DNA from: Collinsella tanakaei
GTDB taxonomy: Bacteria > Actinomycetota > Coriobacteriia > Coriobacteriales > Coriobacteriaceae
DNA length: 64,000 bases
NCBI RefSeq assembly: GCF_016900375.1
Contig: NZ_JACJKB010000012.1
Location: forward strand, 1-64,000
Reading direction: 5' to 3'
Each line of letters begins with the position of its first letter. Within the stretch, counting starts at the first letter, position 1. Below are positions 38,329 through 57,265 of this stretch, piece by piece. The notes under the pieces were generated by a model. It did no database searches. It was not told the origin of the DNA and was given only the letters and a program-made list of their open reading frames with translations. The position numbers and the translations under genes were made by a program.

Positions 38329-39318
38329 CTAGACCAGGTGCTTCGCAAAGAACGCCTGGAGCTTGTCCCACGGGATGGCGTTCTTGCTGCCGCCGTCGTA
38401 GAGGTCGGTGTGCACGGCGCCCGGCACGAGCACGAGCTCCTTGTTATCGCCCTTGAGCTGAGCGAACGCATCCTTGCCCATGTAGCAGGAGTGCGCGGCG
38501 TCGCCATGGAGCACCATGACGGCGGTCTCGATCTCGTCCGCGTAGGCGAGGATCGGCTGGTTCAGGAAGCTTTGCGTGCCGATGACGTTCCAGCCCTCGT
38601 TGGAGTTGAGCGAGCGAGGATGGTAGCCGCGCGGCGTCTTGTAGTAGTCGTGGTAATCGCGGACGTACCATGGCGCGTCCTCGGGCAGCGGGTCGACGAC
38701 GCCGCCGGCGCGATCATAGATGCCCGCCGCGTAATCGTGCGTCCGCTGATCGGCGAGAGCGCGGCGCTGGGCCTGGCGGGCCTCCGCGCTATCGGCCTCG
38801 TCGAAATAGCCCTTCGCGCTGATGCGCGCCATGTCGTACATCGTGACCGCGGCCGTCGCCTTGATGCGCGGATCGAGCGCCGCGGCATTGATCGACAGGC
38901 CGCCCCAGCCGCAGATGCCGATGATGCCCACGCGCTCGGGGTCGACATCGTCGCGGCAGGAGAGGTAGTCCACGGCTGCAAGGAAATCCTCGGTGTTGAT
39001 GTCGGGCGACGCCATGTAGCGCGGCTCCCCGCCCGACTCGCCGGTGAACGACGGGTCGAAGGCGATGGCGAGGAAACCTCGCTCGGCCATGGTCTGGGCG
39101 TATAGGCCGGCGCACTGCTCCTTCACGGCGCCGAAGGGCCCGCACACAGCGATAGCGGCGAGCTTCGCGTCTGCCGGCGCGTCCTTCGGCTTGTAGAGAT
39201 CTGCCGCCAGCGTGATGCCGTAGCGGTTATGGAACGTCACCTTGTTGTGTTCAACGAGCTCCGACTTCGGAAATGTCTTGTCCCATTCCTGCGTAAACGT
39301 GAGTTCTACGTTGTGCAT
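38329..39318 (-). CDS. alpha/beta hydrolase, dienelactone-hydrolase-like
   Basis: The 329-aa protein has the alpha/beta-hydrolase fold. The nucleophile elbow is GIIGICGWGGLS, with Cys in place of Ser as in dienelactone hydrolases. The likely acid and histidine lie in TAVMVLHGDAAHSCY and VPGAVHTDLYDGG. Related proteins include E. coli YcjY. The ATG at 39318 has AAAGGGG 5 nt upstream. Partnering with a cyclophilin-like lipoprotein is typical of accessory redox/hydrolase clusters; the substrate is unknown. Confidence 0.85.
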   Translation of the reverse strand: MHNVELTFTQEWDKTFPKSELVEHNKVTFHNRYGITLAADLYKPKDAPADAKLAAIAVCGPFGAVKEQCAGLYAQTMAERGFLAIAFDPSFTGESGGEPRYMASPDINTEDFLAAVDYLSCRDDVDPERVGIIGICGWGGLSINAAALDPRIKATAAVTMYDMARISAKGYFDEADSAEARQAQRRALADQRTHDYAAGIYDRAGGVVDPLPEDAPWYVRDYHDYYKTPRGYHPRSLNSNEGWNVIGTQSFLNQPILAYADEIETAVMVLHGDAAHSCYMGKDAFAQLKGDNKELVLVPGAVHTDLYDGGSKNAIPWDKLQAFFAKHLV

Positions 39319-39445
39319 ATGCGCCCCTTTCTGACGGCCATATTTCCCACCTCTATTGTCAGAGCGCATCAATGCCATTTCAAATACCTATGTTTAATGC
39401 CTTTTCATGCAAATATCGTATAGATACTGCCCAGGAAACATAAAC

Positions 39446-39476
39446 CGACAAGTTTGTACCTGGCCCCAACTTGTCG
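39446..39476. repeat. 31-bp CGACAAG palindrome (A3)
   Basis: CGACAAGTTTGTACC... pairs at its ends with ...CCAACTTGTCG. It lies in the divergent gap between the hydrolase and the Ca-loop protein. Confidence 0.9.
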
Positions 39477-39575
39477 CAAGGATATGCCCCTCCCGTTCGT
39501 GTTTATGGTGAAGGGCAGCCGGCAGCTCGAGCACAGAACAACGGCGCACGCATCGATCGGAAAGGACGGCAGAAC

Positions 39576-40004
39576 ATGCAGAAGCATACGAAACTCACCG
39601 TTTTGGCAACATTGGGAGCCGTGGCGCTGGGAGCGACGCTCATCGGAGCCGTTCCCGCATTGGCCGCAGGCAATGGCAACGGTTATGGGCGCGAGAGCCT
39701 ACAGGCGGAGCTCAGCCAGACGACCGACATCGGGTCGCGCGGCTGTGCGAGCTTCGTTGACGTGAACGGCGACGGCATCTGCGACAACTACGAATCCGGC
39801 GCAGGCAATGGCGCGGGGTACATCGATGCCGACGGCGACGGCATTTGCGACAACTACGGAACCGGCGCAGGGCGCGGCAACGGAGACGGATACGTCGACG
39901 CCGACGGCGACGGGGTCTGCGACAACTACGGAACCGGTGCAGGCGGCGGGCATCACGGTCGCCACGGCGGCCGCCATCACGGTGGCGGGCGCGGTCACTG
40001 CTAG
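39576..40004 (+). CDS. secreted protein with three EF-hand-like loops and His tail
   Basis: The 142-aa protein has a signal peptide (about 1-31, ending VPALAAG). Three near-identical repeats DVNGDGICDNY, DADGDGICDNY and DADGDGVCDNY follow, each resembling a calcium-binding EF-hand/dockerin loop with one Cys, separated by Gly/Asn-rich spacers. The C-terminus is a Gly-His-Arg tail ending in Cys. The ATG at 39576 has AAAGGA 9 nt upstream. It precedes an ECF sigma / RsgI-like pair that may control it. Calcium or other metal binding outside the cell is inferred. Confidence 0.8.
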   Translation: MQKHTKLTVLATLGAVALGATLIGAVPALAAGNGNGYGRESLQAELSQTTDIGSRGCASFVDVNGDGICDNYESGAGNGAGYIDADGDGICDNYGTGAGRGNGDGYVDADGDGVCDNYGTGAGGGHHGRHGGRHHGGGRGHC

Positions 40005-40216
40005 ATCGCACGCGTCCCATACTGCGGCAGGCGCCGCCAAGCGGGTGGAGTGATCGCCTCCGGGACGCGCAACGCGGTCACATAGTACTATCAGGACAGT
40101 TTTGCCTTCTGCGGAAGCCTCAATCCGGTCGAATAGTACCGAATGCCCGGCCTGCGCAGCCCAAAGCTGCAGCCAGAAAGACGCATCCTGCGAGCGCAAC
40201 AGGAAAGGAGCGGCAC

Positions 40217-40705
40217 ATGCGCCCAGCCAGCGACATCGAGCAGGCAATCAGCGCATACGGCGACGCCGTCTGGCGCGCATGCCTGCTCTACCTCGCGGAA
40301 GCAGATGCAGAAGATGTCTTCCAGGACGTCTTTCTCAAATATGCCCTGCACGACGCTCCGTTCAATAGTTATGCGCACAAAAAGGCATGGCTGCTGCGCG
40401 TCGCCATCAACGCCTGCAAGGATGTTCTCAAAAGCGCGCGCAGGCGAAACGAATCGGTCGAGGAACTCGCCGATGCGGGGCGCGAGGGAGAGCTCGGCGC
40501 CGGGAGCGACCAGGCGACACTCGGTCTGCACGCGATTCTCGACGCCATGGATGCATTGGGCGACCCGCCGAAAACGCAACTGTACCTGGCTCTTTACGAG
40601 GGCTACACCGCACGTGAAATCTCTCAGATGACCGGCATGCCGGAGGGCACCGTGTACTCGTGGATCTCGCGCGGCAAGAAGCAGCTGAGGGAGGCCCTGC
40701 AATGA
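40217..40705 (+). CDS. ECF-type RNA polymerase sigma factor
   Basis: The 162-aa protein has sigma region 2 (AYGDAVWRACLLYLAEADAEDVFQDVFLKYA, AWLLRVAINACKDVLKS) and region 4 (LGDPPKTQLYLALYEGYTAREISQMTGMPEGTVYSWISRGKKQLREAL). The start has AAAGGAG 7 nt upstream. Its stop codon overlaps the anti-sigma start as ATGA, so the two are co-translated. The adjacent RsgI-like protein would hold it inactive at the membrane until a cell-surface signal. Confidence 0.93.
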   Translation: MRPASDIEQAISAYGDAVWRACLLYLAEADAEDVFQDVFLKYALHDAPFNSYAHKKAWLLRVAINACKDVLKSARRRNESVEELADAGREGELGAGSDQATLGLHAILDAMDALGDPPKTQLYLALYEGYTAREISQMTGMPEGTVYSWISRGKKQLREALQ

Positions 40706-41610
40706 CCGACAAGCTTGAGCAGCGGATGCATGAGGCCTTCGACCAGGAGCATATGCCCGCCGGCCTCGCCGAGCGCACGCTCGCGCGGATTGAGGAGGAG
40801 CGGCAGGCGGGGGCAGCGAATGGACCGGCGGACAGCCTCCCCCACGCCGAGGAGCCATCGCTTTCCGTCGTCGACGGCAAGACCTCTCGCCGCACCGCGC
40901 GCAGGCATCGCCGCACGCCGCTCGTCGCAGCCCTTGCCGCCTGCCTCGTTCTTGTGGCGCTCGGCGTCGGCGGCGTTGCGTGGGCATGGCAGCCCTACGC
41001 CTACGTGGCCATCGACGTGAACCCCTCCATAGAGCTGGGCATCAACCGCTTCGACCGCGTGGCGAGCACGCGTTCCTACAACGACGACGGCGCCGAGCTG
41101 CTCGAGAAGGCGGACGTCGACGGCATGGTCTACGAGGATGCCATGGACGCGCTGGAGGAGCATCTGCAGGACTATCTCGCCACGGGCGCCGTCGTGCAGA
41201 TGACCGTGATCTGCGACGACGAGGCGGAAGCAGCGACGCTGGAGACCGTGGGCACGCGCTGCCTCGACGCCTCGGGAGCCGGCCAGGTGCACTGCTCGCA
41301 TGCAAGCGAGGAGGAGCATCACGCGGCCTCGAGCGCCGGCGTCGGCATCGGCAAGTACCGCGTGTGGCAGCAACTCGCCGACGCGGGCGTCGACATCACG
41401 GTGGATGAAGCGGCAAACATGACCATGCGCGAGCTACTCGATATGGCGGGCGAAAATGACGTCAGCGTCTCTGGCCACGAGCAACGTGAGGCCGGGCATC
41501 ACGGAGAGGGTGCGGTATCGACAAGCAGCGGCACCGCGACGCAGGAAGGCGCGGAGTCAGGTCACCGCCGCGCCCAGAACGGACAGCACGGCGGCCGCCA
41601 CCACGAGTAG
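40702..41610 (+). CDS. RsgI-like membrane anti-sigma factor
   Basis: The 302-aa protein has a cytoplasmic N-terminus of about 80 residues, one membrane span (about 72-93) and an outside RsgI-type domain that begins AYVAIDVNPSIELGINRFDRV. Its C-terminal 80 residues are His/Glu/Gln-rich and disordered (HEQREAGHHGEG... ending HGGRHHE), a possible metal-binding tail. In clostridial RsgI/SigI systems the outer region senses polysaccharide; here no carbohydrate module is visible. It overlaps the sigma gene by 4 bp. Confidence 0.85.
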   Translation: MTDKLEQRMHEAFDQEHMPAGLAERTLARIEEERQAGAANGPADSLPHAEEPSLSVVDGKTSRRTARRHRRTPLVAALAACLVLVALGVGGVAWAWQPYAYVAIDVNPSIELGINRFDRVASTRSYNDDGAELLEKADVDGMVYEDAMDALEEHLQDYLATGAVVQMTVICDDEAEAATLETVGTRCLDASGAGQVHCSHASEEEHHAASSAGVGIGKYRVWQQLADAGVDITVDEAANMTMRELLDMAGENDVSVSGHEQREAGHHGEGAVSTSSGTATQEGAESGHRRAQNGQHGGRHHE

Positions 41611-41696: not shown

Positions 41697-42530
41697 TTAC
41701 GCCTCGGTGATGTCGATGCCGAAGAACTCGTTCGAGAGCTCGGGAAGCGTGCCGTTCTCGCGCAGGGTGACGATGGCGTCGTTCATGGCCGTGAGCAGGC
41801 TCGCCGTAGCGGCCTCTTTGCGCAGCGGGAAAGCGACGTGCGTGGGCTCGTCGTTCTCGGCCGCAATCTTGAGATTCGCCTCTGGATGTTGGTTCATGTA
41901 GTCGTAGAACACGACCTCGTCGTTGAGCGTCGCGTCGATACGACCGCTCTCGAGCAACTGGATGGTCTGGTTAAAATCGTCCACGCCCGTGTTTGTGGCG
42001 CCATGGCTTTCAGCCAAGATGGCATAGCTGGAGCCCAGCGTGTTCGCCGTGGTCTTGCCCGCAAGGTCGTCCATTCTGGCAATGTCGGAATCGGCGGTTG
42101 TGATCACCACGATACGGTTGTACGCATACGGCTCGGTGAAGTCGTACTTCTCCTCGCGCTCCTCAGTGACCGACACGCCGTTGGCCATGGTGTCGTAGCG
42201 GCCCGAGTCGATGCCCGCGAGCAGGCCGTCCCACTCGCCCTCAGCGAACTCCGCCTCGACGCCGAGCTCTGCCGCGATGGCGCGGGCGACCTCGATGTCG
42301 TAGCCGGTGAGGTCGCCGGCCTCGTTATGGAAGGTCCACGGGCTCCACGTGCCCTCGGTGGCGAACACCATGCTGCCGCGGTCCTGGATCTGGGCGAGCA
42401 GGTCATCGCCCGCTTCCGACGCACTGCCCGCCGTCGCGTCGCCTGCGCCGCCGCAGCCCGTCAGCCCCAGCGCGGCCGCACCCGCAACCGCCGTCAGGAA
42501 TCCGCGACGGGAAATCTGCTTGTTCATCAT
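41697..42530 (-). CDS. ABC transporter amino-acid-binding lipoprotein
   Basis: The 277-aa protein has a twin-Arg-like signal with lipobox (SRRGFLTAVAGAAALGLTGC). The binding domain is SBP_bac_3: GSMVFATEGTWSPWTFHNEAGDLTGYDIEVARAIA, WDGLLAGIDSGRYDTMANGVSVTEEREEKYDFTEPYAY and LLESGRIDATLNDEVV, the pattern of polar amino acid and cystine receptors (FliY/TcyA type). The ATG at 42530 has AAAGGA upstream. It is last in the operon, separated from the ATPase gene by a 139-bp palindrome that may set different expression levels. Confidence 0.92.
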   Translation of the reverse strand: MMNKQISRRGFLTAVAGAAALGLTGCGGAGDATAGSASEAGDDLLAQIQDRGSMVFATEGTWSPWTFHNEAGDLTGYDIEVARAIAAELGVEAEFAEGEWDGLLAGIDSGRYDTMANGVSVTEEREEKYDFTEPYAYNRIVVITTADSDIARMDDLAGKTTANTLGSSYAILAESHGATNTGVDDFNQTIQLLESGRIDATLNDEVVFYDYMNQHPEANLKIAAENDEPTHVAFPLRKEAATASLLTAMNDAIVTLRENGTLPELSNEFFGIDITEA

Positions 42531-42600
42531 AGTTTCAGTCCTTTCTGGAATGGTTGTCCCTGTGCTGGAGGTCACCGTGCGCGCCAAGCCCGGCGGATCT

Positions 42601-42739
42601 GCAAAAAGTCGGGGCTTTGGACGGTTTTTTGCGCCCTGGGCGACATTCACGCCTTTTCTACCTGCATGTTTACCAAGGTAGAACGCCTGCTTGTCTGGAC
42701 CCGGCGCTAAAAACCCGTCCAAAGCCCCGACTTTTTGGC
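42601..42739. repeat. 139-bp palindrome inside the ABC operon
   Basis: Outer arms 42601-42635 and 42703-42739 (AAAAAGTCGGGGCTTTGGAC and inverse) pair almost perfectly, and the interior continues as a looser palindrome down to CTACCT/AGGTAG. It fills the gap between the ATPase and binding-protein genes. Confidence 0.9.
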
Positions 42740-42792
42740 AAGCGGCGGGCGCAGCCGCCCGTACTCGGCCCGTTGCGCCCGCGGGCTCGCCC

Positions 42793-43542
42793 TCACCGAT
42801 CGGCGATGGTGTTCAGGAAGGTGCGAACGCGATCGTTAGCGGGATGGTCGAAGAACTCGTGTGCCGGAGCCGAAGCCACCACGGCGCCGTCTTCCATAAA
42901 GACCACGCGATCGGCGACGTTTTTCGCGAAAGACATCTCGTGCGTGACCACGAGCATGGTCATGCCGTCTTCTGCCAGCTGGCGCATGGAACCCAGCACC
43001 TCGACGGTCAGCTCGGGATCGAGTGCGCTTGTGGGCTCGTCGAAGTAGATGATCTCCGGATCGGTCGCCATAGCGCGGGCGATCGCCACGCGCTGCTGCT
43101 GACCACCGGAAAGCTGCGCCGGGTAAGCGTCGGCGCGATCCGCCATGCCGACGCGCGCCAGGCAGCGGCGGGCGATATCCTCAGCCTGCGCTTTCGGCAT
43201 CTTGCGCGCCACGACCAACCCTTCCGTCACATTGCCCAGCACCGTCCGGTTGCGAAACAGGTTGTAGTTCTGGAACACGAAAGCGGTCCTGCGACGAACC
43301 GCCGCCATCTCGCGCTTGGTCGCCCGTGCAAGGTCGTAGCGCTCGCCGCCAAGCTCAAGCACGCCCGCATCCGCGCGCTCAAGGAAGTTCGCGCAGCGCA
43401 GCAGCGTCGTCTTGCCGGAGCCCGACGGGCCCAAAATGGCCACGACCTCGCCGCGGCGCACGGTCAGGTCGATGCCGTGCAGCACCTCGGCGCCGCCGAA
43501 CGTCTTGCGCACGCCCTCAAGGCGCAGCATCTCATCTGCCAT
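42793..43542 (-). CDS. ABC transporter ATP-binding protein, polar amino acid type
   Basis: The 249-aa ATPase has Walker A GPSGSGKTTLL (near 36), Q-loop VFQNYNLFRNRTVLGNV, the signature LSGGQQQRVAIARAMA, Walker B IIYFDEPTSALD and the switch His in VVTHEM. It is of the GlnQ/TcyC class. It begins 4 bp after the permease gene ends. Confidence 0.95.
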   Translation of the reverse strand: MADEMLRLEGVRKTFGGAEVLHGIDLTVRRGEVVAILGPSGSGKTTLLRCANFLERADAGVLELGGERYDLARATKREMAAVRRRTAFVFQNYNLFRNRTVLGNVTEGLVVARKMPKAQAEDIARRCLARVGMADRADAYPAQLSGGQQQRVAIARAMATDPEIIYFDEPTSALDPELTVEVLGSMRQLAEDGMTMLVVTHEMSFAKNVADRVVFMEDGAVVASAPAHEFFDHPANDRVRTFLNTIADR

Positions 43543-43545
43543 CGG

Positions 43546-44220
43546 CTATCCCCTCTCCATGCCAAACGACGCGAGCCGCTTCTCGCCGATACCCTGCAGC
43601 CAGGTGAGTACCGTGGAAAACAGCAGATAGATAGCTGCAACCTCCAGGTACAGCGGCAGCGCCTCGTACGTGCGCGACACGATCTGCTGCGTTGCCATGA
43701 GCATCTCGAGCACGGTGATGTTCGCGGCGAGCGAGGTGTCCTTCACGAGCGCGATGAGCTCGTTGGAAAGCGGCGGGAAGGCGGCACGCAACGCCTGCGG
43801 CAGCAAAATGCGGCGCATGATCTGCATGTAGCTCATACCCACGCAATAGCCCGCCTCGAGCTGTCCCGCCGGTACCGACTCGAGCGCACCGCGGATGGTC
43901 TCGGCCGAATAGGCGCCCGTGTTGATGGAGAACACGATGATGGCGGTCGGGAACGGGTCGAGCACGATGCCGAAATCGGGCAGACCATAGAACACCACGT
44001 AGAGCTGGACCAGCAGCGGCGTACCGCGGACGATCCAGATGTAGAAGCGCGCAATCTGCGTGAGCACGGGAACCTTCGCGTACTGAACGAGCGCCACCGC
44101 GATAGCGATCACGAGCGCGATGGCGAACGAGATGAGCGCCAGCGGTATCGTTGCGGTCAGACCCGGAATCAGGATCTTCGAAAACGAGTCGAGCAGAATC
44201 TCCGCGACGCGGTCACTCAT
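43546..44220 (-). CDS. ABC transporter permease, polar amino acid type
   Basis: The 224-aa permease has about five spans and the HisMQ-type signature with EAA loop around AEAGYCVGMSYMQIMRRILLPQALRAAFPPL, plus FYIWIVRGTPLLVQLYVVFYGLP. The ATG at 44220 has AGGGGG 6 nt upstream and overlaps the stop of the Cys-rich small gene by 8 bp, so it is probably translated by coupling to that gene. Confidence 0.93.
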   Translation of the reverse strand: MSDRVAEILLDSFSKILIPGLTATIPLALISFAIALVIAIAVALVQYAKVPVLTQIARFYIWIVRGTPLLVQLYVVFYGLPDFGIVLDPFPTAIIVFSINTGAYSAETIRGALESVPAGQLEAGYCVGMSYMQIMRRILLPQALRAAFPPLSNELIALVKDTSLAANITVLEMLMATQQIVSRTYEALPLYLEVAAIYLLFSTVLTWLQGIGEKRLASFGMERG

Positions 44221-44482
44221 GGGCATCCCCCTTCCCATCGCAGGCGGATGCCTCGCGCGAAACGCATTCGCAGCTCACGCGATGGAGCATGTGGTCGATG
44301 GCGTCGATGCCGCGCTGGCTGGCATGCATCTCGTCAAGCAGGCGCTGGCGCTCGCCGAGCAGCACGCGCTTGGTCTCGCGAACGCGGCCCTCCTCGCACG
44401 AGCAGCGCGCCTTCGCGGCACGCGCCTCGTCACAGGCGCAATCGCAAAGACAGCGTTCGAGGTCTTCGCTCAAATCACCCAT
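44213..44482 (-). CDS. small cysteine-rich protein leading the ABC operon
   Basis: The 89-aa product has nine Cys (residues 11, 13, 15, 17, 27, 29, 71, 73, 81), mostly in CxC pairs at the two ends, around a helical Arg/Glu-rich centre. AAAGGAG lies 6 nt before the ATG. It overlaps the permease start by 8 bp. It may bind metal, or act as a cysteine-supply sensor through its Cys codons for the downstream transporter; both are inference. No family is recognised. Confidence 0.75.
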   Translation of the reverse strand: MGDLSEDLERCLCDCACDEARAAKARCSCEEGRVRETKRVLLGERQRLLDEMHASQRGIDAIDHMLHRVSCECVSREASACDGKGDAHE

Positions 44483-44569
44483 AGCAATCTCCTTTCGAAG
44501 CCTATGGTAGATCGTCGCGATACCCATGTAAAAGACCTATATCCTATAGCTAGATATACCTTGCAAGCA

Positions 44570-44600
44570 TGAAAGAAAGGGGACAGGCCCCAAACTTTCA
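44570..44600. repeat. 31-bp TGAAAG-family palindrome (B2)
   Basis: TGAAAGAAAGGGGACAGGCC... pairs with ...CCAAACTTTCA. With B3 (44656) it forms a 36-bp imperfect inverted repeat around a terminator hairpin. Confidence 0.9.
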
Positions 44601-44608
44601 TGCAGAAA

Positions 44609-44642
44609 GAGCCCCTCCAGTCTTTCGCGATCGGAGGGGCTC
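44609..44642 (-). terminator. hairpin downstream of the LPXTG gene
   Basis: GAGCCCCTCC (44609-44618) pairs with GGAGGGGCTC (44633-44642), and on the transcribed strand is followed by TTTCTGC. It is enclosed by the B2 and B3 palindromes. Confidence 0.65.
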
Positions 44643-44655
44643 CCGGCATGTGGCG

Positions 44656-44686
44656 TGAAAGCTTGGGACCTGTCCCCTAACTTTCA
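44656..44686. repeat. 31-bp TGAAAG-family palindrome overlapping a stop codon (B3)
   Basis: TGAAAGCTTGGGACC... to ...CCTAACTTTCA ends exactly with the complement of the LPXTG gene's TGA stop (44684-44686). Confidence 0.9.
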
Positions 44687-47092
44687 TGAGCGGCGCTTCT
44701 TGAGGGCAAGCACCACGCCGGCGATAACCGCGATGACCCCGGCTCCTCCCACTGCGGCGATTACGATCAGCGAGCTATCGCCCGTTTGGGGAAGCTGCTC
44801 GTGCGCGGGCATGCCATCGGCGCTGACAATGGGGGCGATGACCTCGAAGTATCCTCCGGTGGGAATCGTCAGGTATACCTCGCCGCCGCCAGCGACGGTC
44901 TCGTACGTGTAGGTGCGACCATCGTCACCGTACAGGACGACCTCGACCGTCTGGCCATCATAGTCGTGCGTGCGGATGCCGATGCGCGCGCGCATGCCGT
45001 CGAAGGTCATGCCCATGACCGTGTCGTCAAGCGGCGTCACGAGCGCGATGGCGACACCGAGGACCGCGCGGTCGCCTTTGCCCAGGCTCGTAACGGGATT
45101 CTCGCGTGCGCCGGTAAGCACCAGGCATTCCACGGTAACGCCCGAGGGGACGCCCTCCACCGTGACGCCGGCGCTCGTGTTCTGGTAATCCCAGGCCGCT
45201 CCGGTACCGAACACCGCGATGCGACGCGTTGCGGTCACGCTTTCCGCCACGCCCGGGAACGCGCGCGTGGTGGCCGTGATGGTCACGACGCCGTCGGAAA
45301 CTGCGGTCACCGTGCCATTAGCGTCGACGCGTGCGACCTTGGAATTCGACGAGCTCCACGTCACCGCAACTGCGGAGGCGGCAGGATCGAACACGGGCTT
45401 TAGATTCAGCGGGTTGCCCGGAGACGCGTAGGCAACGTCATCGCCAAAGGGATCATCGGGAAGCGCGATCGTGAAATGCTCGATCTTGGGCTTGGTAGCG
45501 ATGGCCTGGGAGAACGTCTCTGTCGCCTTGGCGAGGGAGTCCGTCGCGGCATCGACGTCGTTTTGCGTGAGCGATGTCAGCTCTGCGGTTGCGACGGTTT
45601 TGGCCGCAGCGCGCGCGGCGTTGAACGCGTCGCCCTGTTCCGTTGTTGCCCACCGGGCGCCGGGAGCGACGTCGAAGATGTCCTCGGCGATGGTCACGCC
45701 GTTGTCCGCATCAGCAGCTGCGGCGCGTGCTTTCTCAAGGTCAGCGCGGGAAACCTGGGCGACTTTCACGGTGTCCTCGAACGCAGTGCGGGCTATGGCA
45801 AGCGCATCCGCCGTGGTGTCGACGGCGTTCTGGCTGGCATCCTTTGCGTCGAGCATTGTCTTCGCCTCGGCGAGGGCTGCCTTGAGCGCATCGTGATGTT
45901 CGGGGGCTGTCCAGGCGGAGCCGTGCTTTACATCACGGCCGTCCTTCGAGGCGGCGGTTTCTGCGAGGGCCTTGTCCGCCGCCGCAGCGTCACTCAGGGC
46001 CGTGCGGTCGACATGCACCATCTTGATGGCAGCGGCGAGCTTCTCATGCAGGTCTTTGACCTCGCTGCGTGCGGCAGAAATGCCGTCGAGCGTGAGGTCT
46101 TCGGCCTCGAGCCTTGCCGCGAGCGCATCCAGCTCGGACGCGAGCGTCGCAGCGTCGTCCGCCGGTAGATAGACCGTCGCATCAGGCGCGTCTGCCAGCT
46201 CATCCTCGTCGAGAACGATCGTCTCGTCCAGTTGCGCGCGCAGCTCTTCCAGCTCAGCCATTGCCGCGGCGAGCTCCTCCTCGAGCTTGGCGTCGAGATC
46301 CGCACCGGGCTCCTCTTCAGGCTGCTCCTCTTCGAACTGCTCCTCGGGATTCTCTTCGGGGGTCTTCCCCGGCTCGGCTTCGTCACCCTCGCGGGGCTCC
46401 GGACCAGGCTCTTCCTCAAGCTCCTGTTCCGCCGGCTCCGCGGGTTCGGAGGCAACCGCACCGATGACCTCGTAGCGCCCGTTAGCCGTTCCCGTCGGCA
46501 CGCCGCTCAGCGTGAGGCGCGCGCCGTCCCAGCGCACTTCCACCAGAGCACCCGCCGGGGATCCGTCCGCGCCGGCGACTACGGTGGCGCTCAGCGTCAC
46601 CGGCTCATCGCCTTCCGCATAGAACACGATGGCCACGGTGTCGCCAACGGCGGCATCGCCCGCGGGGAACAACAGGTTGGCACTGACGGGATCGGTCGAA
46701 TCGTCGCCTTCCGCAGCCGGATAGGCGAGCTGGCCCACAAAAGTCACGGCCTGGCCTTCCACGAGCTCCGTCGTCCGGGCCTCCTCAACCGGCAGCACAC
46801 TTGCCTGGGGTACGAGGTCGCCCAACGGCCCGACGATCCAACCGGACCCGTCGACATCCACAGCGCTCACGGCATCGGTCGTATCGTCGGCGGGCGCGGC
46901 CTCATCTTCCGCATCCGGCGGCAGGGTTTCTTCGGTAGCAGCCGCCTCCTCATCCGCCGCAGCGGACTCAAGCTCGACGACCGCCGCTTCGGGCGCGTCG
47001 TCGGCATATGCAAGGGAGGGAATCGGACTCACCGCAATCAGCGCAATAGTCAGCAGCATGGCGGGGAAGTTCGCAACGGGCATCCTCTTCAT
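44684..47092 (-). CDS. LPXTG cell-wall-anchored surface protein
   Basis: The 802-aa protein has a signal peptide (1 to about 29), an acidic Pro/Glu-rich stretch (about 220-275), three helical FIVAR-like repeats (about 335-550) with the recurring W-ptp.. motif HGSAWTAPEHHDALKAAL / GARWATTEQGDAFNAA, and a BIG2-like Ig domain (VTWSSSNSKVARVDANGTVTAVSDGVVTITA). It ends with LPQTG at 767, a membrane span and KKRRS, the sortase sorting signal. The role is probably adhesion or cell-surface binding. GGAGGAGGG precedes the ATG. Confidence 0.9.
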   Translation of the reverse strand: MKRMPVANFPAMLLTIALIAVSPIPSLAYADDAPEAAVVELESAAADEEAAATEETLPPDAEDEAAPADDTTDAVSAVDVDGSGWIVGPLGDLVPQASVLPVEEARTTELVEGQAVTFVGQLAYPAAEGDDSTDPVSANLLFPAGDAAVGDTVAIVFYAEGDEPVTLSATVVAGADGSPAGALVEVRWDGARLTLSGVPTGTANGRYEVIGAVASEPAEPAEQELEEEPGPEPREGDEAEPGKTPEENPEEQFEEEQPEEEPGADLDAKLEEELAAAMAELEELRAQLDETIVLDEDELADAPDATVYLPADDAATLASELDALAARLEAEDLTLDGISAARSEVKDLHEKLAAAIKMVHVDRTALSDAAAADKALAETAASKDGRDVKHGSAWTAPEHHDALKAALAEAKTMLDAKDASQNAVDTTADALAIARTAFEDTVKVAQVSRADLEKARAAAADADNGVTIAEDIFDVAPGARWATTEQGDAFNAARAAAKTVATAELTSLTQNDVDAATDSLAKATETFSQAIATKPKIEHFTIALPDDPFGDDVAYASPGNPLNLKPVFDPAASAVAVTWSSSNSKVARVDANGTVTAVSDGVVTITATTRAFPGVAESVTATRRIAVFGTGAAWDYQNTSAGVTVEGVPSGVTVECLVLTGARENPVTSLGKGDRAVLGVAIALVTPLDDTVMGMTFDGMRARIGIRTHDYDGQTVEVVLYGDDGRTYTYETVAGGGEVYLTIPTGGYFEVIAPIVSADGMPAHEQLPQTGDSSLIVIAAVGGAGVIAVIAGVVLALKKRRS

Positions 47093-49363: not shown

Positions 49364-49648
49364 TCAATCGCCTGTGCTACGGGCGGCGATATCCTTCACG
49401 CGCTCGAACTGGCGCATGATGTAATCGTAGTTCTCCCGGCGATGCGGCACGGTGCAGGCGGAGCAATCCTTGATGTCGCCCGCCTCGCCCACGTAGCGGA
49501 AGTTGCCGCCGCAATCGGGGCCCAGGCAGTACAGCGGGCAATAGCAGAACAGGCAGTTGAGGTCTTCTGCCGGCATATCGTGGCAGGGGTAGAACTCGCA
49601 TGCCGTGTGGTTGAAGAACTTGTAGTGCTCGCCGCCCTGACGCCCCAT
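49364..49648 (-). CDS. cysteine-rich small-domain protein
   Basis: The 94-aa protein has the conserved Cys pattern HTACEFYPCHD, LNCLFCYCPLYCLGPDCGG and IKDCSACTVPHRRENYDYI, matching the cysteine-rich small domain family (Pfam CRSD) found alone or fused to cobamide-related proteins in anaerobes. It probably binds metal or an iron-sulphur cluster; the function is unknown. The ATG at 49648 has GAGGTA upstream. It stands alone. Confidence 0.88.
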   Translation of the reverse strand: MGRQGGEHYKFFNHTACEFYPCHDMPAEDLNCLFCYCPLYCLGPDCGGNFRYVGEAGDIKDCSACTVPHRRENYDYIMRQFERVKDIAARSTGD

Positions 49649-49807
49649 ACGTACCTCGCAGGTTCGAATGATCCACCATTGCCGACATCGTACCAAAGCA
49701 GATAGCCCGGCAAGATGCGATGTGAGCACTCAAACGTTTTTGTCCACGCGCGATGATAGGCTTCTATTCAACGGAAGACCTGCAGGCAACAGCGGTAGGA
49801 GGCTGCA

Positions 49808-51044: not shown

Positions 51045-51464
51045 CTACGCTTGCGGGTACTGACTGTCGTCGACCGGCTCGAGCCACTCGTTGGAGGTGT
51101 CCTCGCCGGGCGCCTCAAAGGCGATGTGGCTGAACCACGAGTCGCACGCGGCGCCATGCCAGTGCTTGACGCCGGCGGGAATCACCACGACAGTGCCGGG
51201 CGTAAGCTCCTGCGGGTCCTTTCCCCACTCCTGGTACCAGCCGCGACCGTCGGTGCAGACGAGGATCTGGCCGCCGCCCTTGCTGGCGTGGTGGATGTGC
51301 CAGTTGTTGCGGCAGCCGGGCTCGAAGGTGACGTTGGACATGCCGATGCCGGCCTCCGCCGGATTGGTCAGCGGGTTGAGATACGAGTTGCCGATGAAGT
51401 ACTGCGCATAGGCGTCGTTGGGGTTGCCCATGCCGAACATGGGGGTGAAGTCGTTGGTTGCCAT
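51045..51464 (-). CDS. cupin-domain protein
   Basis: The 139-aa single-domain cupin shows metal-binding motif 1 (NWHIHHASKGGGQILVCTDGRG) and motif 2 (PGTVVVIPAGVKHWHGA). Such cupins are often paired with carboxymuconolactone-decarboxylase-like proteins, one of which lies about 1 kb upstream in the same direction. The substrate is unknown. GGAGGAAACC precedes the ATG. Confidence 0.92.
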   Translation of the reverse strand: MATNDFTPMFGMGNPNDAYAQYFIGNSYLNPLTNPAEAGIGMSNVTFEPGCRNNWHIHHASKGGGQILVCTDGRGWYQEWGKDPQELTPGTVVVIPAGVKHWHGAACDSWFSHIAFEAPGEDTSNEWLEPVDDSQYPQA

Positions 51465-51536
51465 GGTTTCCTCCTTTGGCTTGGCGAGCCGGCGGCACTG
51501 GAGTCCCAGCTCGCATGGTTTATTAGCTGATTCGTG

Positions 51537-52502
51537 CTATGCCATCGTCATGACCAGCATGAGGATGGGCACGATGGCAAACGACGCGAGCGTCGACACG
51601 ATGGTCCCGCGCGCCGGGATATCGCCGTTCTGTCCGTAGGTCGCCGCGATAGGACCGGCCATCGAGCCGGTCGGCATGGCGAGCAGCACGATGAAGACGC
51701 CGAGGGCGAGGTCGCTCGGCACGATAGGCGCGAGCACGAGATAGGCGATGAGCGGCGCAATGAGGAAGCGAATGAGCGTGAAACCCCACAGGCGCCCCTC
51801 GGTAAGCACGCTTCTCAGGTCGGCATCGGCGATGGAGAGACCCACGAGCATCATCGCGAGCGGCGCGGTGATGCCGCCGGTCATATTCGCCGCCTGCATG
51901 ATGGGCATCGGAACGGGGATGTTCGCGAAGAACACGACCATCGCGATGAGACTCACGACGAGCGGCACGTTGAGCATGTTCTTGAGAACGGTGCGCGCGG
52001 TTTCTGCCAACGGGGTGCGGCGCGCCGCGGCATCGCCCGTAGCGCCGCTCGTCAACGCGGCGATGCCGAGGCTGTACAGAAACACGTTCGAGATCGCGAT
52101 GAAGATCGACCCCAGGAACACCGACGCACCGCCGAAAACGGAATCGAGCACCGCGAAGCCGATGAAGCCCGTGTTGGTGAGCACGCCTTGGAACAGGTAG
52201 AGGCCGCGATGCTCCGCCGGCACGCGCAGCACCGCCACGGCGACGGCCGCGGCAACGAGCATCACGAAGAATATCGCCACGCCGAGGATGATCGACCAGG
52301 TGATGGCGTCGCCGCCCGTTGACGGGTCGACCTCCCCCACCGAGGCCAACACGGTGCACGGCAGGGTGATGTTGAAGATGAGATTCGAGATCTTGGGGCG
52401 GATGTCGGCGGTAAGGTAGCCCGCCTGCGCGGCGATGTAGCCCAAGATCGTGACGATGATAAGCGAGAACATGCTGCCCAGCACGCTTGCGATATCGACC
52501 AC
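51537..52502 (-). CDS. AEC-family transporter
   Basis: The 321-aa protein has about ten membrane spans in the auxin-efflux-carrier pattern: KISNLIFNITLPCTVLASV, GVLTNTGFIGFAVLDSVFG, a PLAMMLVGLSIADADLR core and MPTGSMAGPIAATYG. AEC proteins move organic acids (malonate, malate) or efflux substrates. Start is GTG at 52502 with AAGGGA upstream. It lies between the CMD and cupin genes on the same strand, with 20 bp to the CMD stop, suggesting one transcript. Confidence 0.9.
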   Translation of the reverse strand: MVDIASVLGSMFSLIIVTILGYIAAQAGYLTADIRPKISNLIFNITLPCTVLASVGEVDPSTGGDAITWSIILGVAIFFVMLVAAAVAVAVLRVPAEHRGLYLFQGVLTNTGFIGFAVLDSVFGGASVFLGSIFIAISNVFLYSLGIAALTSGATGDAAARRTPLAETARTVLKNMLNVPLVVSLIAMVVFFANIPVPMPIMQAANMTGGITAPLAMMLVGLSIADADLRSVLTEGRLWGFTLIRFLIAPLIAYLVLAPIVPSDLALGVFIVLLAMPTGSMAGPIAATYGQNGDIPARGTIVSTLASFAIVPILMLVMTMA

Positions 52503-52521
52503 GGCGACCGTCCCTTCCTGC

Positions 52522-53232
52522 CTACGCGCGCGCCGCCGCGGCGTTATCGATGCAGGTCAGGGCGTTCAGACTGCGCGGGTAGCCGATGTAGGGCAGCATC
52601 TGCGAGACCACGCGGTACAGGAAATCGCGGTCGCGACCCAAGTTGAGGTTCGCGCCGGCATGCGCCGTGGCTTGCGGCTCGCAGCCGCCCTGGGCCGCGA
52701 TGTAGCAGAAGGTGATCATCTCGCGATCGAGGTCAGAAAGGCCGCTGCGGGTGTAGTAGTCACCGAAGCAGTTGGCAGCGAGCCAGCGGTTGATGTGCTC
52801 GCGCTCCGCCGGGCCGTTCGCCCAGCTCTCGCGCATGCCCTCGCCGAAGTACTCGATCTGCTTCCGATTACCCGCCGCTTGGCGCGTCTCGAGCGTAGTC
52901 GTCTGCTGCCCGGGCAGGGGCAGCTCGACGCCGCGGGAGGTCAGGACCTCGTTTGCCGCAGCGATAAACGGGCGCACGCGACCGATGCCCAGGTACGCGG
53001 TCGCTTGATAGACGACCTCCTTAAGCTCGACGGGCGTCACGCCGGCGTCGAGCGCCTCGGACGCCATCACGCGGAACTCGTCGACGCCTTGGCAGCCCAG
53101 CAAGGCGGCGAGGATCGCCAGGTAGCGCTCGCGCATCGGAAGCTCAGCCGCGGGGTCGGTCGGCACCTGCTCGCCCGCGAAGTACGCAAAGCGCTCAGCG
53201 AACTCCGGATCGGTCTTCTCAAACTCTTTCAT
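52522..53232 (-). CDS. carboxymuconolactone-decarboxylase-family protein, two domains
   Basis: The 236-aa protein has two AhpD-like alpha-helical domains: FRVMASEALDAGVTPVELKEVVYQATAYLGIGRV (about 60-100) and LSDLDREMITFCYIAAQGGCEPQATAHAGANLNLG (about 170-205). The CxxC peroxidase pair of AhpD is not visible, so a decarboxylase or unknown role is more likely. The ATG at 53232 has GGAAGGAG upstream. It heads the CMD - AEC transporter - cupin run. Confidence 0.88.
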   Translation of the reverse strand: MKEFEKTDPEFAERFAYFAGEQVPTDPAAELPMRERYLAILAALLGCQGVDEFRVMASEALDAGVTPVELKEVVYQATAYLGIGRVRPFIAAANEVLTSRGVELPLPGQQTTTLETRQAAGNRKQIEYFGEGMRESWANGPAEREHINRWLAANCFGDYYTRSGLSDLDREMITFCYIAAQGGCEPQATAHAGANLNLGRDRDFLYRVVSQMLPYIGYPRSLNALTCIDNAAAARA

Positions 53233-53248
53233 CTTCAAACTCCTTCCG

Positions 53249-53279
53249 TGAAAGTTTGGGGCCTGTCCCCAAACTTGCA
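53249..53279. repeat. 31-bp TGAAAG-family palindrome (B4)
   Basis: TGAAAGTTTGGGGCC... pairs with ...CCCCAAACTTGCA. It lies 19 bp from A4 in the gap between aldo/keto reductase and CMD genes. Confidence 0.9.
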
Positions 53280-53297
53280 AATCTTGTCAGCCAGAAG

Positions 53298-53328
53298 CGA
53301 CAAGTTTGTACCTGGCACCATCTTGTCG
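53298..53328. repeat. 31-bp CGACAAG palindrome abutting a stop codon (A4)
   Basis: CGACAAG...CTTGTCG ends at 53328; the aldo/keto reductase stop begins at 53329. Confidence 0.92.
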
Positions 53329-54345
53329 CTACTTCACGTTGGGATCGGTCGTGCCGGCGAGGGCCTTCTCGCCCGGGCGGGCAAGGGGTCCTACGAGCTC
53401 GTGGGCGACGTAGGGCTCCTCCAAGTAGGCGACCTCGTCGGCCGCCAGCTCCACGTCGAGCGCCGCCACGGCATCGTCCACGCGCTCGAGGCGCGAGCAG
53501 CCCACGATGGGCGACTCCACACCGCGGGCCCAGTGCCAGGCAAGCGCGATCTGCGCCATCGGCACGCCGTGGCGCTCGGCGACCTCGGCCACGCGGCCCA
53601 CAATCCGCATGTCGTTGTCGCGCGCCGCATCGTACTTGTTGCGCATCGTGGCGTCGGTCGTAGAGCGGCAGGACTCGGAATCCCAAGTGGGCCGGCACAG
53701 GTGGCCGGACGCCATCGGCGAATACGGCGTGAGCGCCATATCGAACTGGCGACACACGGGAATCATCTCGCGCTCATCCTCGCGGTAGAGCAGGTTGTAG
53801 TGGCACTGCATGCTCGTGAACGGCGTCCAGCCGTTCTGCTGCGCCACGACCTGCATGTTGTGCAGCTGGTAGGCGTACATTTCGCTCGCGCCGAGGGCAC
53901 GGACCTTGCCAGTGCGCACAAGGCCATCGAGGGCCTCCATGGTCTCCTCGATCGGCGTGCCATAATCGAAGCGATGGATGATGTAGAGGTCGAGGTAGTC
54001 GGTCCCCAGGCGCTTGAGTGTGCCGTCAATCTCGCGGTTGATGGCCTCGCGCGAGAGCTTGCCCTCGTTGAAGTACACCTTGCTGGCGAGCACCACCTGA
54101 TCGCGAGCGACACCCAGGTCGCGCAGGGCGGCACCGATGTACTCCTCGCTCGTACCGAACGCATAGCAATTCGCCGTGTCGATGAAGTTGATGCCCAAGT
54201 CGAGCGCGCGTTTGATGACCGCGCGCGTGTCGTCGGGCCCGATGGTCCACTGGTGGAAGTCGGGCGACGGCCTGCCGAAGCTCATACCGCCCAAACAGAG
54301 CTTCGAGATCTTGATGCCGGAATGGCCAAGCGTCGTGTACTGCAT
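53329..54345 (-). CDS. aldo/keto reductase
   Basis: The 338-aa barrel protein has the NADPH-dependent AKR pattern: LGHSGIKISKLCLGGMSFG, LDLGINFIDTANCYAFGTSEEYIGAAL (catalytic Asp and Tyr), VVLASKVYF (Lys), DYLDLYIIHRFDYGTPIEETMEALDGLVRTGKVRALGAS (His), and the C-terminal SPIVGCSRLERVDDAVAAL cofactor loop. It is of the YajO/IolS-like branch acting on aldehydes. It follows a cyclophilin-like gene by 29 bp and is divergent from a LysR regulator. Confidence 0.95.
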   Translation of the reverse strand: MQYTTLGHSGIKISKLCLGGMSFGRPSPDFHQWTIGPDDTRAVIKRALDLGINFIDTANCYAFGTSEEYIGAALRDLGVARDQVVLASKVYFNEGKLSREAINREIDGTLKRLGTDYLDLYIIHRFDYGTPIEETMEALDGLVRTGKVRALGASEMYAYQLHNMQVVAQQNGWTPFTSMQCHYNLLYREDEREMIPVCRQFDMALTPYSPMASGHLCRPTWDSESCRSTTDATMRNKYDAARDNDMRIVGRVAEVAERHGVPMAQIALAWHWARGVESPIVGCSRLERVDDAVAALDVELAADEVAYLEEPYVAHELVGPLARPGEKALAGTTDPNVK

Positions 54346-54374
54346 GGCGTTTCCTCCTTTGCGCGAGCTCGTCT

Positions 54375-54737
54375 CTACCGCCCCGCCTCTATGACAACGT
54401 CGTAACTGCCGGCAAGCGCGCGAAGCTGGGTAAGCGAGCTCTCGATATGCCCGATGGTGAACTGATCGCCGTAGCGCTGTGAGTTCTCCTCGTCGTCGAA
54501 AAACACTGCGAGCCAGCCACTGGCGGGGTTGTAGTTGACGTCGCCGTTTGTCCAGCCACGATGAATGCGGGCGAAATCGACAGGCAGCTCGAGCGGAGCG
54601 GCCCCGCAGATGCCAACAGACGAGGCGCTCATGGGGATGACCATAGGCAGCCGCGTGAAGAGCGCATGGGCAGCCGCGCTATCGTTGAGCTGGGCGGAAA
54701 TCGCCACATCGCCAAAATGCATCACGATGGGCCGCAT
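54375..54737 (-). CDS. stand-alone cyclophilin-like domain protein
   Basis: The 120-aa protein is a single cyclophilin-like (Cyclophil_like2-type) domain: IVMHFGDVAISAQLNDSAAAHALFTRLPMVIPM, a central LELPVDF segment, NYNPASGWLAVFFDDEEN and QFTIGHIESSLTQLRALAGSYDVVIEAG. It is the first gene of a unit with the aldo/keto reductase. Domains of this type also occur in the lipoprotein at 37780 and fused to DUF362 at 58049. No catalytic residues are evident. Confidence 0.8.
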   Translation of the reverse strand: MRPIVMHFGDVAISAQLNDSAAAHALFTRLPMVIPMSASSVGICGAAPLELPVDFARIHRGWTNGDVNYNPASGWLAVFFDDEENSQRYGDQFTIGHIESSLTQLRALAGSYDVVIEAGR

Positions 54738-54804
54738 GCGCCGTTCCTCCTCCCCCGTAATTGCCTAGCTTTAGTTTCTGCCCGCGAGAAGAGGAATACA
54801 ATTA

Positions 54805-54829
54805 CTTATACTGTATATCGTGATATAAG
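54805..54829. promoter_or_regulatory. palindromic LysR-type site in divergent promoter
   Basis: CTTATACTGTATATCGTGATATAAG has 6-bp complementary ends around an AT-rich centre, 26 bp before the LysR start and upstream of the divergent cyclophilin-like gene. It fits a LysR operator overlapping both promoters. Confidence 0.55.
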
Positions 54830-54854
54830 GTTTTATAATGCTTTGGAGGAGGCT

Positions 54855-55736
54855 GTGGAGCTTCGCGCCTTACGCTACTACCTCGCCGTTTGCGAATACG
54901 GAACCATGTCGCGCGCCGCCGAAGCGCTGCACGTGACCCAACCCGCTTTGTCGCGGCAGATCGCCCAGCTTGAGCGCGAGCTGGGCTGCGAGCTGTTCGA
55001 GCGCCATAGCCGCAGCGTCACTCCCACCGAACAGGGGCTTTATCTGCGGCGGCGCGCCCAGGAGATCGTTGGGCTCGCCGACCAGACCGCTGCCGACTTC
55101 TCGCACGACGAAGGCATCGTTGCGGGCGATATACACATCGGCGCCGGCGAGAGCGTTGCCATGCGGCAAATCGCCCGACAGGTCGCCCGGTTTCGCGGGC
55201 GCCATCCCCACGTGCGCTTCCATCTGCACAGCGCCATCGCGACCGATCTGGTCGAGCGGCTCGAACACGGGCTCGACGACCTTGTGGTCCTCATGTCGCA
55301 TCCCGACAACGACCGGTACGAACACCTGCGCCTGCAGCCCACCGATGCCTGGGGCGTCATCATGAGGGAGAACGACCCGCTGGCGGCACAGGAGCTCATC
55401 GGTCCCGCCGACCTCGCCGACGCCCCGCTCATCATGCCCGAGCGCTCGTGGAGCGATGAGGGGCCGATCGGCCCCCTAGGCATGTGGTTCGGCGAGCACG
55501 GAGGCGAACTTGACGTCATCGCGACATATAACCTCTCCTTCAACGCAGCGATGCTCGTGCAGGAGGGCGCCGGCAGGATGATCTCGCTCGAAGGCCTTAC
55601 CGCAACAGGAGGCAACACGGGCTTGGAGTTCCGCCTGCTCTATCCGCCCGCGGTCTCGATCATCGACGTCGTCTGGAAACGCAACGCCCCGCGCTCGCGC
55701 GCCGTCCAGCTCTTCCTGGAACAGCTCCAAGCCTAA
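54855..55736 (+). CDS. LysR-family regulator
   Basis: The 293-aa protein has the LysR winged HTH (LRYYLAVCEYGTMSRAAEALHVTQPALSRQIAQLERELGCELFER, 5-50) and a substrate-binding effector domain (GDIHIGAGESVAMRQIARQVARF...). The GTG at 54855 is chosen because GGAGGAGG lies 3-8 nt upstream and it matches family length. Divergent from the cyclophilin-like/aldo-keto-reductase unit, it is the probable controller of that unit, like YqhC-type aldehyde regulators; the inducer is unknown. Confidence 0.93.
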   Translation: MELRALRYYLAVCEYGTMSRAAEALHVTQPALSRQIAQLERELGCELFERHSRSVTPTEQGLYLRRRAQEIVGLADQTAADFSHDEGIVAGDIHIGAGESVAMRQIARQVARFRGRHPHVRFHLHSAIATDLVERLEHGLDDLVVLMSHPDNDRYEHLRLQPTDAWGVIMRENDPLAAQELIGPADLADAPLIMPERSWSDEGPIGPLGMWFGEHGGELDVIATYNLSFNAAMLVQEGAGRMISLEGLTATGGNTGLEFRLLYPPAVSIIDVVWKRNAPRSRAVQLFLEQLQA

Positions 55737-55742
55737 CTGAGC

Positions 55743-55773
55743 CGGCAAGATTGAACCCGGCCCCAACTTGTCG
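55743..55773. repeat. 31-bp CGACAAG-family palindrome (A5)
   Basis: CGGCAAGATTGAACC... to ...CCAACTTGTCG lies 6 bp after the LysR stop. One arm base is changed (G for A). Confidence 0.88.
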
Positions 55774-55844
55774 CATCAGAGCTCTGTAAGCCTTTCCGCG
55801 CATCGAAGGCTGCCCCGGTACACTAAGCGCAGGAAAGGAGACCC

Positions 55845-56396
55845 ATGAGTGCTGTCGTCGTCTTTCGCTCACAGACCGGTTCGGCCAGAATGTATGCGCA
55901 ATGGCTGGCCGAATCACTCACGTGCGCGATCGCTCCGGTGGAAAACATCGACGAGGCCGCCCACGAGGCCGATCTCGTCATCCTCAGCGGCTGGTTCCAC
56001 GCCGCCTCCCTCAAGGGCTCCAAGGAGTTCAAGGCGTACATGGCGAAACACCCCGAAAAGCACTATGCGGTCATAGCCGTCGGTGCAACGCCCATGCCTA
56101 GCAAGGACTGGCCCGCAGCCGAGCACGAAGAGGCGTTTCGCCGCTCGTTTCCCGCAGAGCAATACCCCGATCTTCCATGGTGCTATTGCCGTGGCAGGTT
56201 CTTCTTCGACCAGCTGAATGCACTCGACAAGATTGCCATGCGCGTGTACTTCCGCATGCTCGAAAGCGCTGCTCGCAAGGGCTCGAAGCGCGATTCCGCG
56301 GCACTTGAAGGAATGCGGCGCGGCTTCGACGCCTGCGACCGCAGCTACCTGGAGCCGCTACTTGACGAACTGCGCGCACGCAGATGGATCGACTAG
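55845..56396 (+). CDS. flavodoxin-like protein (HemG-type)
   Basis: The 183-aa protein has a short-chain flavodoxin domain: FMN-phosphate loop VVFRSQTGSARMYAQWLAES, VILSGWFHAASLKGSKEFKAYM and FDQLNALDKIAMRVYFRML, resembling menaquinone-dependent protoporphyrinogen oxidase (HemG) family members. AAAGGAGACCC precedes the ATG. It faces the FMN reductase gene across a family-A palindrome. It is one of four flavodoxin-fold proteins in this region. Confidence 0.88.
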   Translation: MSAVVVFRSQTGSARMYAQWLAESLTCAIAPVENIDEAAHEADLVILSGWFHAASLKGSKEFKAYMAKHPEKHYAVIAVGATPMPSKDWPAAEHEEAFRRSFPAEQYPDLPWCYCRGRFFFDQLNALDKIAMRVYFRMLESAARKGSKRDSAALEGMRRGFDACDRSYLEPLLDELRARRWID

Positions 56397-56419
56397 GGCG
56401 GACTGCCTTAACGTCGAAA

Positions 56420-56450
56420 CGACAAGATTGAACCCGGCCCCAACTTGTCG
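56420..56450. repeat. 31-bp CGACAAG palindrome (A6)
   Basis: CGACAAGATTGAACC... to ...CCAACTTGTCG lies between convergent genes, 7 bp from the FMN-reductase stop. Confidence 0.92.
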
Positions 56451-56457
56451 CTCCCTG

Positions 56458-56994: not shown

Positions 56995-57046
56995 ATCCTT
57001 CTCCCCCTCGACGAATTACGGAGCTGCCCGATGCCCTGCAATGACT

Positions 57047-57208: not shown

Positions 57209-57265
57209 CGGTGCCTCCTTTTCCTGCTTCGTCCTATCGCTCGCGAGATCCCCCTGGACCAAAAG

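Follow-up and report, generated by a model that had tools for sequence, protein, structure and literature searches.

What does a small cysteine-rich protein do when its gene stands directly ahead of an amino acid importer, with its stop codon running into the permease start? The question is raised by a locus of Collinsella tanakaei (contig NZ_JACJKB010000012.1), which we analyzed within a window of 64,000 nucleotides, that is, the whole stretch of DNA under study. A preliminary description of this DNA had proposed that ribosomes stall at the Cys codons of the small gene when cysteine is short and that translational coupling hands the effect on to the permease. Much of the anatomy behind that proposal is borne out, since the nine-cysteine frame, for which no strand had been given, exists on the minus strand, is conserved and constrained, and is preceded by the strong ribosome site that had been claimed, 6 nt 5′ of its ATG (Table 1). 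The frame comprises 89 codons and a stop, with Cys at positions 11, 13, 15, 17, 27, 29, 71, 73, and 81, and its stop shares ATGAGTGA with the permease start, confirming the reported overlap at a length of 8 nt. Some 200 nt separate the small gene from the next gene upstream on the same strand, which ends at position 44684, and this gap contains a conserved promoter-like element, so that the small gene is, as had been suggested, likely the first of its operon.

Table 1. Features of the small-gene locus (window coordinates)
Feature	Positions	Strand	Remarks
Small gene, Cys-rich 89-aa protein (9 Cys)	44213..44482	-	predicted stand-alone MerR (NmlR/AdhR-like) alpha3-to-dimer-helix module
Shine-Dalgarno (SD) sequence AAAGGAG of small gene	44489..44495	-	
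-10-like TACCAT	44504..44509	-	17 nt after TTTACA; by eye
Conserved element TATAGGTCTTTTACATG	44525..44541	-	T-N11-A, LysR-box-like; overlaps -35-like TTTACA (44532-44527)
Amino acid ABC permease	43546..44220	-	best NCBIfam match cystine permease; start overlaps small gene by 8 nt
ABC ATPase	42793..43542	-	best NCBIfam match L-cystine TcyN
Solute-binding protein (SBP)	41697..42530	-	best NCBIfam match cystine SBP; best PDB match 2yln
Diverged copy of promoter element	39376..39391	-	upstream of hydrolase; 2 mismatches to 16-mer
Alpha/beta hydrolase	38329..39318	-	84% identical to the hydrolase that follows the small gene in 11/33 loci; start by homology

The upstream neighbor encodes an 802-aa surface protein (44684-47092, minus strand) that ends in LPQTG and a membrane anchor, and a surface protein also directly precedes the small gene in two related loci (L010 and L011). 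Between the surface-protein gene and the small-gene promoter, at 44560-44690, an inverted repeat (GGGGCCTGTCCCC / GGGACCTGTCCCC, plus CTTTCATG) looks terminator-like by eye. With the longer 104-aa start chosen by the gene caller, the small gene ranks second in Cys content among the called genes of the window; the one that ranks first (49364-49729, minus strand) has 11 Cys in 121 aa, and proteins resembling its product are encoded near small-gene relatives in L014, L015, L020, and L021.

Downstream of the small gene follow permease, ATPase, and SBP (41697-44220). A cystine family is the best NCBIfam match of each, in agreement with the cystine-like transporter of the preliminary description, even though the three subunits, at 209.3, 312.2, and 172 bits, stay below the curated equivalog cut-offs of 300, 406, and 312 bits; the importer is thus cystine-like by best family match, and its substrate assignment is a prediction. 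The families concerned are those of the TcyJLN and FliY-YecSC cystine ABC transporters, from which the window importer differs in these sub-cut-off scores and in the small gene at its head. The E. coli cystine ABC system is not known to have such a small gene at its head. The best PDB match of the SBP, 2yln, is described in passages of PMC7170509 as the L-cystine SBP of Neisseria gonorrhoeae. The 8-nt overlap is kept in all 17 relatives that are linked to the transporter, while the length of the small protein varies among them from 89 to 115 aa, and translational coupling, as earlier claimed, is thus well supported as an architecture predicted from the sequence. In addition, the permease start is preceded in the 17 linked loci by purine runs that resemble an SD of its own. 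On the other strand (39471-41610), we noticed by eye a protein with repeated calcium-loop-like D-x-D-G-D-G units, followed by a sigma factor and an anti-sigma-like protein; in several relatives, the importer is followed by the anti-sigma-like gene.

Relatives of the small gene were found on 30 genome contigs of Collinsella, Enorma, Olsenella, Thermophilibacter, and other Coriobacteriia, with matches outside its own genome down to 4.8e-47. We compared 33 loci, consisting of the window copy, 30 loci of named genomes, L007, and L086. Over these loci, 24 residues of a 73-residue core are invariant, of which 21 are not Cys and three are (C11, C17, and C29); C15 is kept in 32 of the 33. Core dN/dS against the window copy was 0.02-0.26 in the 14 of 15 attempted pairs that were computable (one was saturated), values that are rough since dS exceeds 1 in some of them. 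No Pfam or NCBIfam model, including those of metal-binding families, matched the window protein above cut-off, and eight distant members gave weak matches to unrelated families, all below the cut-offs. An AlphaFold2 model of the window protein (pLDDT 87) predicts three helices, the last of which is long (residues 34-82). Judged by title or opening of the abstract, none of the papers listed on MerR/NmlR/AdhR, LysR, cystine uptake, and Coriobacteria describes this family. It is virtually certain that the small gene encodes a real, conserved protein, which we take to be functional and not a leader peptide.

The surroundings of the relatives extend well beyond cystine import. Genes for this comparison were called by codon usage, the simple list of open reading frames being full of antisense frames in these G+C-rich genomes. 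The next gene is the permease in 17 of the 33 loci, an alpha/beta hydrolase in 11 and a DUF3737 gene in 5 (the last two family names were assigned on L031; a literature search for DUF3737 returned no paper), and in 9 of the 11 hydrolase loci the small gene overlaps the hydrolase start by 4 nt. A divergent LysR gene lies within 250 nt of the small gene in 13 of the 33 loci. One locus, L086, combines both settings in the order LysR, small gene, permease, ATPase, and SBP, and in L039 and L021 the hydrolase is found within or right behind the importer operon. The window has its own hydrolase of this family, 4.9 kb further on from the small gene, and the closest LysR of the genome, which matches the Olsenella-type LysR of L031 at 69%, is encoded on the same contig 26 kb from it. 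The window also holds a redox/carbonyl gene island near the operon (51045-63858), with genes identified by eye for a cupin, a transporter, a carboxymuconolactone decarboxylase, an aldo/keto reductase, flavodoxins, an FMN reductase, an iron alcohol dehydrogenase, and TetR proteins, together with a second LysR paralogue that matches the LysR of L031 at 46%.

Among 395 genomes of the order, 55 match the small protein at E ≤ 0.001. Matches are strong (E ≤ 1e-28) in 38 genomes, and 18 weaker places were found besides, of which we examined 10 in addition to the one in genome G212 (L086). In 9 of these 10 further distant loci, LysR is immediately beside the small gene, with the reservation that four of them (L078-L081) are near-identical and hence not independent; in L088, LysR is 1.1 kb away with a hydrolase between. 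The next genes of the distant loci are again hydrolase or DUF3737, and L083 has genes for an aldo/keto reductase and an iron alcohol dehydrogenase (named by eye). Within the genus, 43 genomes were searched for the permease, which reached E ≤ 1e-60 in 7; among the matches listed, these 7 are also the only members of the genus with the small gene. Over the order, the permease is matched at E ≤ 1e-45 in 24 of 395 genomes. The small gene adjoins it in 18, all from the window's own family and with at least 73% permease identity over nearly the full length, and is missing among the matches listed in the other 6, namely G316 (81%), G394 (66%), G087 (58%), G377 and G378 (43-45%), and G214 (truncated locus). 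The G214 locus (L120) has a truncated permease, an SBP match, and no ATPase match, and may represent an operon copy that is either in decay or misassembled. Conversely, no permease match was obtained in 20 of the 38 genomes where the small gene matches strongly. A search of 296 sampled genomes of the phylum returned small-gene matches in 8, all of them Coriobacteriales and none outside this order, and a search of plasmids with the L083 protein returned none at E ≤ 0.01. Similar short proteins may also occur in Firmicutes.

The promoter region suggests how the gene is controlled. In 31 loci, either TATAGGTCTTTTACATG or TATAGGAATTATACATG stands at a distance of 56-67 nt 5′ of the start, deviating from their joint pattern by one mismatch at most, while the element of L021 lies 120 nt 5′ of the start with two mismatches and that of L023 is recognizable only with five. 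Allowing two mismatches, the element is found in 32 of 33 loci and in none of 1,720 background windows taken from the loci themselves, a comparison that describes conservation and is no independent test, since the pattern was drawn from these loci. A second ribosome-site-like stretch separates element and start in L021 (5001-5273), possibly a duplicated leader. In the genome of the window, the perfect 16-mer occurs once, at the small-gene promoter. Matches with two mismatches number 4, not above chance when compared with 5 for the reversed pattern, so that only the perfect match and the position of the diverged copy ahead of the hydrolase carry weight. The promoter region of the window hydrolase resembles that of the L023 hydrolase, which suggests a shared promoter; the hydrolases of L021 and L039, which sit behind or inside the operon, lack a separate element of this kind. 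T-N11-A is the form of LysR sites, and the conserved element taken together with the divergent LysR genes points to a LysR-type regulon. Thus, the small-gene operon is probably LysR controlled. This pairing of divergent LysR gene and element holds for the family, with the LysR relative of the window genome lying 26 kb away rather than adjacent, and promoter conservation alone could account for the element because it overlaps the -35 sequence.

To place the protein itself, we compared profiles of the family with MerR regulators. The 12-row alignment A2 holds eight distant members (L086 included, and only L079 of the near-identical four) and four close ones, and A1 holds close members. The comparator comprised 30 NmlR-like proteins from the family of genome G285, chosen for their resemblance by eye to the small protein; a first set, gathered through PF13411 and by eye largely HspR-like, was discarded beforehand, so that the comparison covered NmlR-like proteins. 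In hhalign, A2 aligned to the MerR set with probability 90, an E value of 1.7e-6 (for one comparison), and a score of 39.5, residues 9-71 being placed on MerR positions 44-108. In the controls, shuffling the columns 200 times gave a best score of 19.8, and 200 shuffles that kept the heptad phase gave 17.8; the reversed alignment scored 9.6, and comparison with ten other families yielded at most 14.9. A1 on its own reached a probability of only 9.4, and single sequences matched MerR weakly (best E 0.019; window protein 2.0; Z = 1000), so the homology claim rests on the distant members. An AlphaFold2 model of the L083 protein (pLDDT 94.7) also has three helices, and its best VIA-align row is HiNmlR (5d90_B; Z 6.9, rmsd 4.3 over 75 residues, chain positions 43-119), followed by MerR 3gp4_B (Z 5.6, rmsd 3.5), which ties with a ribosomal protein row at the same Z. 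With the model of the window protein, MerR 3gp4_A ranks fifth (Z 5.4, 86 residues), under unrelated rows, and all these Z values, 6.9 and less, are under the level that the tool itself trusts for long helices. Foldseek gave no match at E ≤ 0.001, and a PDB sequence search with A1 or A2 yielded only weak coiled-coil or unrelated matches. On the strength of the profile comparison, and more weakly of structure, the small protein is very probably homologous to a module of MerR proteins.

That module consists of alpha3, alpha4, and the long dimerization helix, on which the hhalign result with its controls and the top VIA-align row, at a moderate Z, agree. It is matched in the same register by the NmlR/AdhR clade (HiNmlR 5d90, 5e01, and 5d8c, Listeria 3gp4, and Bacillus subtilis AdhR). 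The winged-helix DNA-binding domain is absent from the small protein, which has 89 aa, no Pfam match, and a homology that begins at MerR position 44. In the hhalign register, the C11 column falls on the Cys of 'VISCMKKAG', which is Cys in 13 of the 19 inspected among the 30 MerR proteins and in HiNmlR, but not in the clade member 3gp4; that residue 54 of 5d90 is the one opposite C11 was interpolated from the range ends only. Passages of PMC4776306 describe this residue (Cys54 of HiNmlR, Cys52 of AdhR) as one that the NmlR clade conserves without exception and that the formaldehyde response requires. C11 occupies the corresponding position in all 33 loci, yet it is present in only 3 of the 8 distant members of A2, whereas the sole invariant Cys of the 12 rows, C17, corresponds to a hydrophobic residue in the inspected MerR proteins. 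A MerR fragment comprising residues 80-128 is reported in PMC5027573 to form a stable dimer, which implies that a module without the DNA-binding head can dimerize.

Thus, our preferred reading, to which we give a probability of about 50%, is that the small protein is a stand-alone MerR sensor and dimerization module in a thiol/carbonyl-stress regulon run by LysR, to which a cystine importer was recruited in Coriobacteriaceae. For the stress role taken separately, we judge the chances for and against to be balanced. Like the NmlR/AdhR proteins, the small protein has a Cys at the Cys54/Cys52 position and carbonyl-type neighbor genes; it differs from them in lacking the winged helix, in its extra Cys, and in standing beside a LysR gene rather than being the regulator itself. 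The AdhR regulon, as described in PMC4776306, includes the alcohol dehydrogenase gene adhA and a carboxymuconolactone decarboxylase gene, and genes resembling these kinds by eye are present in the window at 60020-61228 and 52522-53280. Stress that depletes thiols, whether by carbonyls, electrophiles, or disulfides, would lead the LysR protein to activate the promoter, upon which small protein and importer would be made together. The small protein, a putative helical dimer with reactive cysteines, would sense or buffer the stress and might feed back on the LysR protein, while coupling would set the dose of the importer, and the imported cystine would replenish cysteine and restore thiols. Direct feedback on LysR is doubtful at present. 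Equally tentative is the broader proposal that sensing and DNA binding are split between two unrelated regulator families, so that a headless NmlR-type sensor would talk to LysR and, wired by coupling to the importer in Coriobacteriaceae, would let thiol stress directly raise the cysteine supply. Such a split switch would be a bacterial analogue of the logic by which NRF2 controls a cystine antiporter.

With the preferred reading, a testable regulon takes the place of a guess about stalling at codons. If it is true, the sensing portion of a MerR switch can persist as an independent protein alongside a regulator of another class, and a family of small proteins in gut Coriobacteria for which no model exists would receive its first function. 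It would also place DUF3737 in a stress regulon and hint at how gut anaerobes tie carbonyl/thiol stress to cystine uptake.

The conserved cysteines could instead hold a metal. Here, C11, C15, C17, and C29 would bind Zn, Cu(I), or an Fe-S center for metal binding or sensing, the MerR-derived helices forming the site across the dimer, and the near-complete conservation of these four over the 33 loci fits such a role, as does Hg(II)-bound MerR, whose metal lies beside the dimerization helix in the sections of PMC5027573 on this structure. However, C17 alone is invariant in A2, the neighbors are of carbonyl/redox type with no metal exporter noticed by eye, and the window protein matched no metal-binding family, and we regard this explanation as unlikely. 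A single metal site built from all four of these cysteines can be rejected, given that L086 lacks C15 and that C17 is the only invariant Cys of A2.

A different use of the cysteines would be to trap reactive compounds without any signaling. The precedent is TipAS, the short isoform of TipAL, which according to the pertinent passages of PMC7762955 is the sensor part of a MerR-type protein without its DNA-binding part and sequesters compounds that its Cys captures covalently. The variable extra Cys of the family would suit a scavenger of electrophiles. TipAS, though, arises from an internal start and is an effector domain that binds drugs, whereas the small protein has a gene of its own and extends only from helix 3 to the dimer helix; with just three helices predicted, it has no ligand domain, and the conserved charged and hydrophobic residues of its long helix suggest an interaction surface. 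We therefore consider a pure scavenger to be quite improbable.

The cysteine-responsive attenuator of the preliminary description, in which stalled ribosomes at scarce cysteine would act on the permease through coupling, can draw on the nine Cys codons, the exact overlap in every linked locus, and the cystine-type transporter. Its best remaining evidence is a contrast close to the gene junction, where 16 of the 17 linked copies have a Cys at positions 71 and 73, against 1 and 2 of the 16 unlinked ones; core Cys also average 7.5 in linked and 5.9 in unlinked copies. Linkage is, however, confounded with relatedness, and the unlinked copies closest to that of the window are L016 (83% identity, 8 core Cys) and L023 (79% identity, 7 core Cys). 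A leader of this kind would be constrained in little more than its Cys codons and would precede cysteine or sulfur genes throughout. Neither is seen: the non-Cys residues are strongly constrained, only 3 of the 24 invariant residues are Cys, just 17 of the 33 loci precede an importer of this type, and the other 16, ahead of hydrolase or DUF3737 genes, still have 5-8 core Cys. Conversely, L086 is linked to the transporter with only four core Cys. The permease has, moreover, its own SD-like sequences, and stalling passed on by coupling would lower rather than raise importer output when cysteine is scarce. Polycysteine leaderless short ORFs of mycobacteria, reportedly described by Canestrari in 2020, offer a parallel in that a Cys-rich short ORF lies ahead of an operon; as far as that account goes, the present gene differs in encoding a constrained protein of 73-115 aa, in having its own SD and 5′ leader, and in also preceding unrelated genes. 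Gene context, constraint, and the conserved non-Cys residues thus lead us to reject Cys attenuation as the main function, and the mechanism as a whole seems very unlikely to us.

Last, the protein could form mixed dimers with a full-length NmlR-like MerR protein and block it, a dominant-negative role for which its MerR homology and the full-length MerR of NmlR type (by eye) that accompanies the small gene in the L088 cluster can be cited, but which is highly improbable because the genome of the window encodes four MerR_1 proteins, none of which looks NmlR-like by eye, and no candidate partner is evident among them. Elsewhere, two short ORFs match only the part of MerR that follows the DNA-binding domain: one in G267 (contig C20, 11365-11634; frame of 95 aa, query positions 51-140) and one in G287 (contig C7, 97319-97582; 134 aa, query positions 48-135). 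These may be further headless MerR genes or gene remains.
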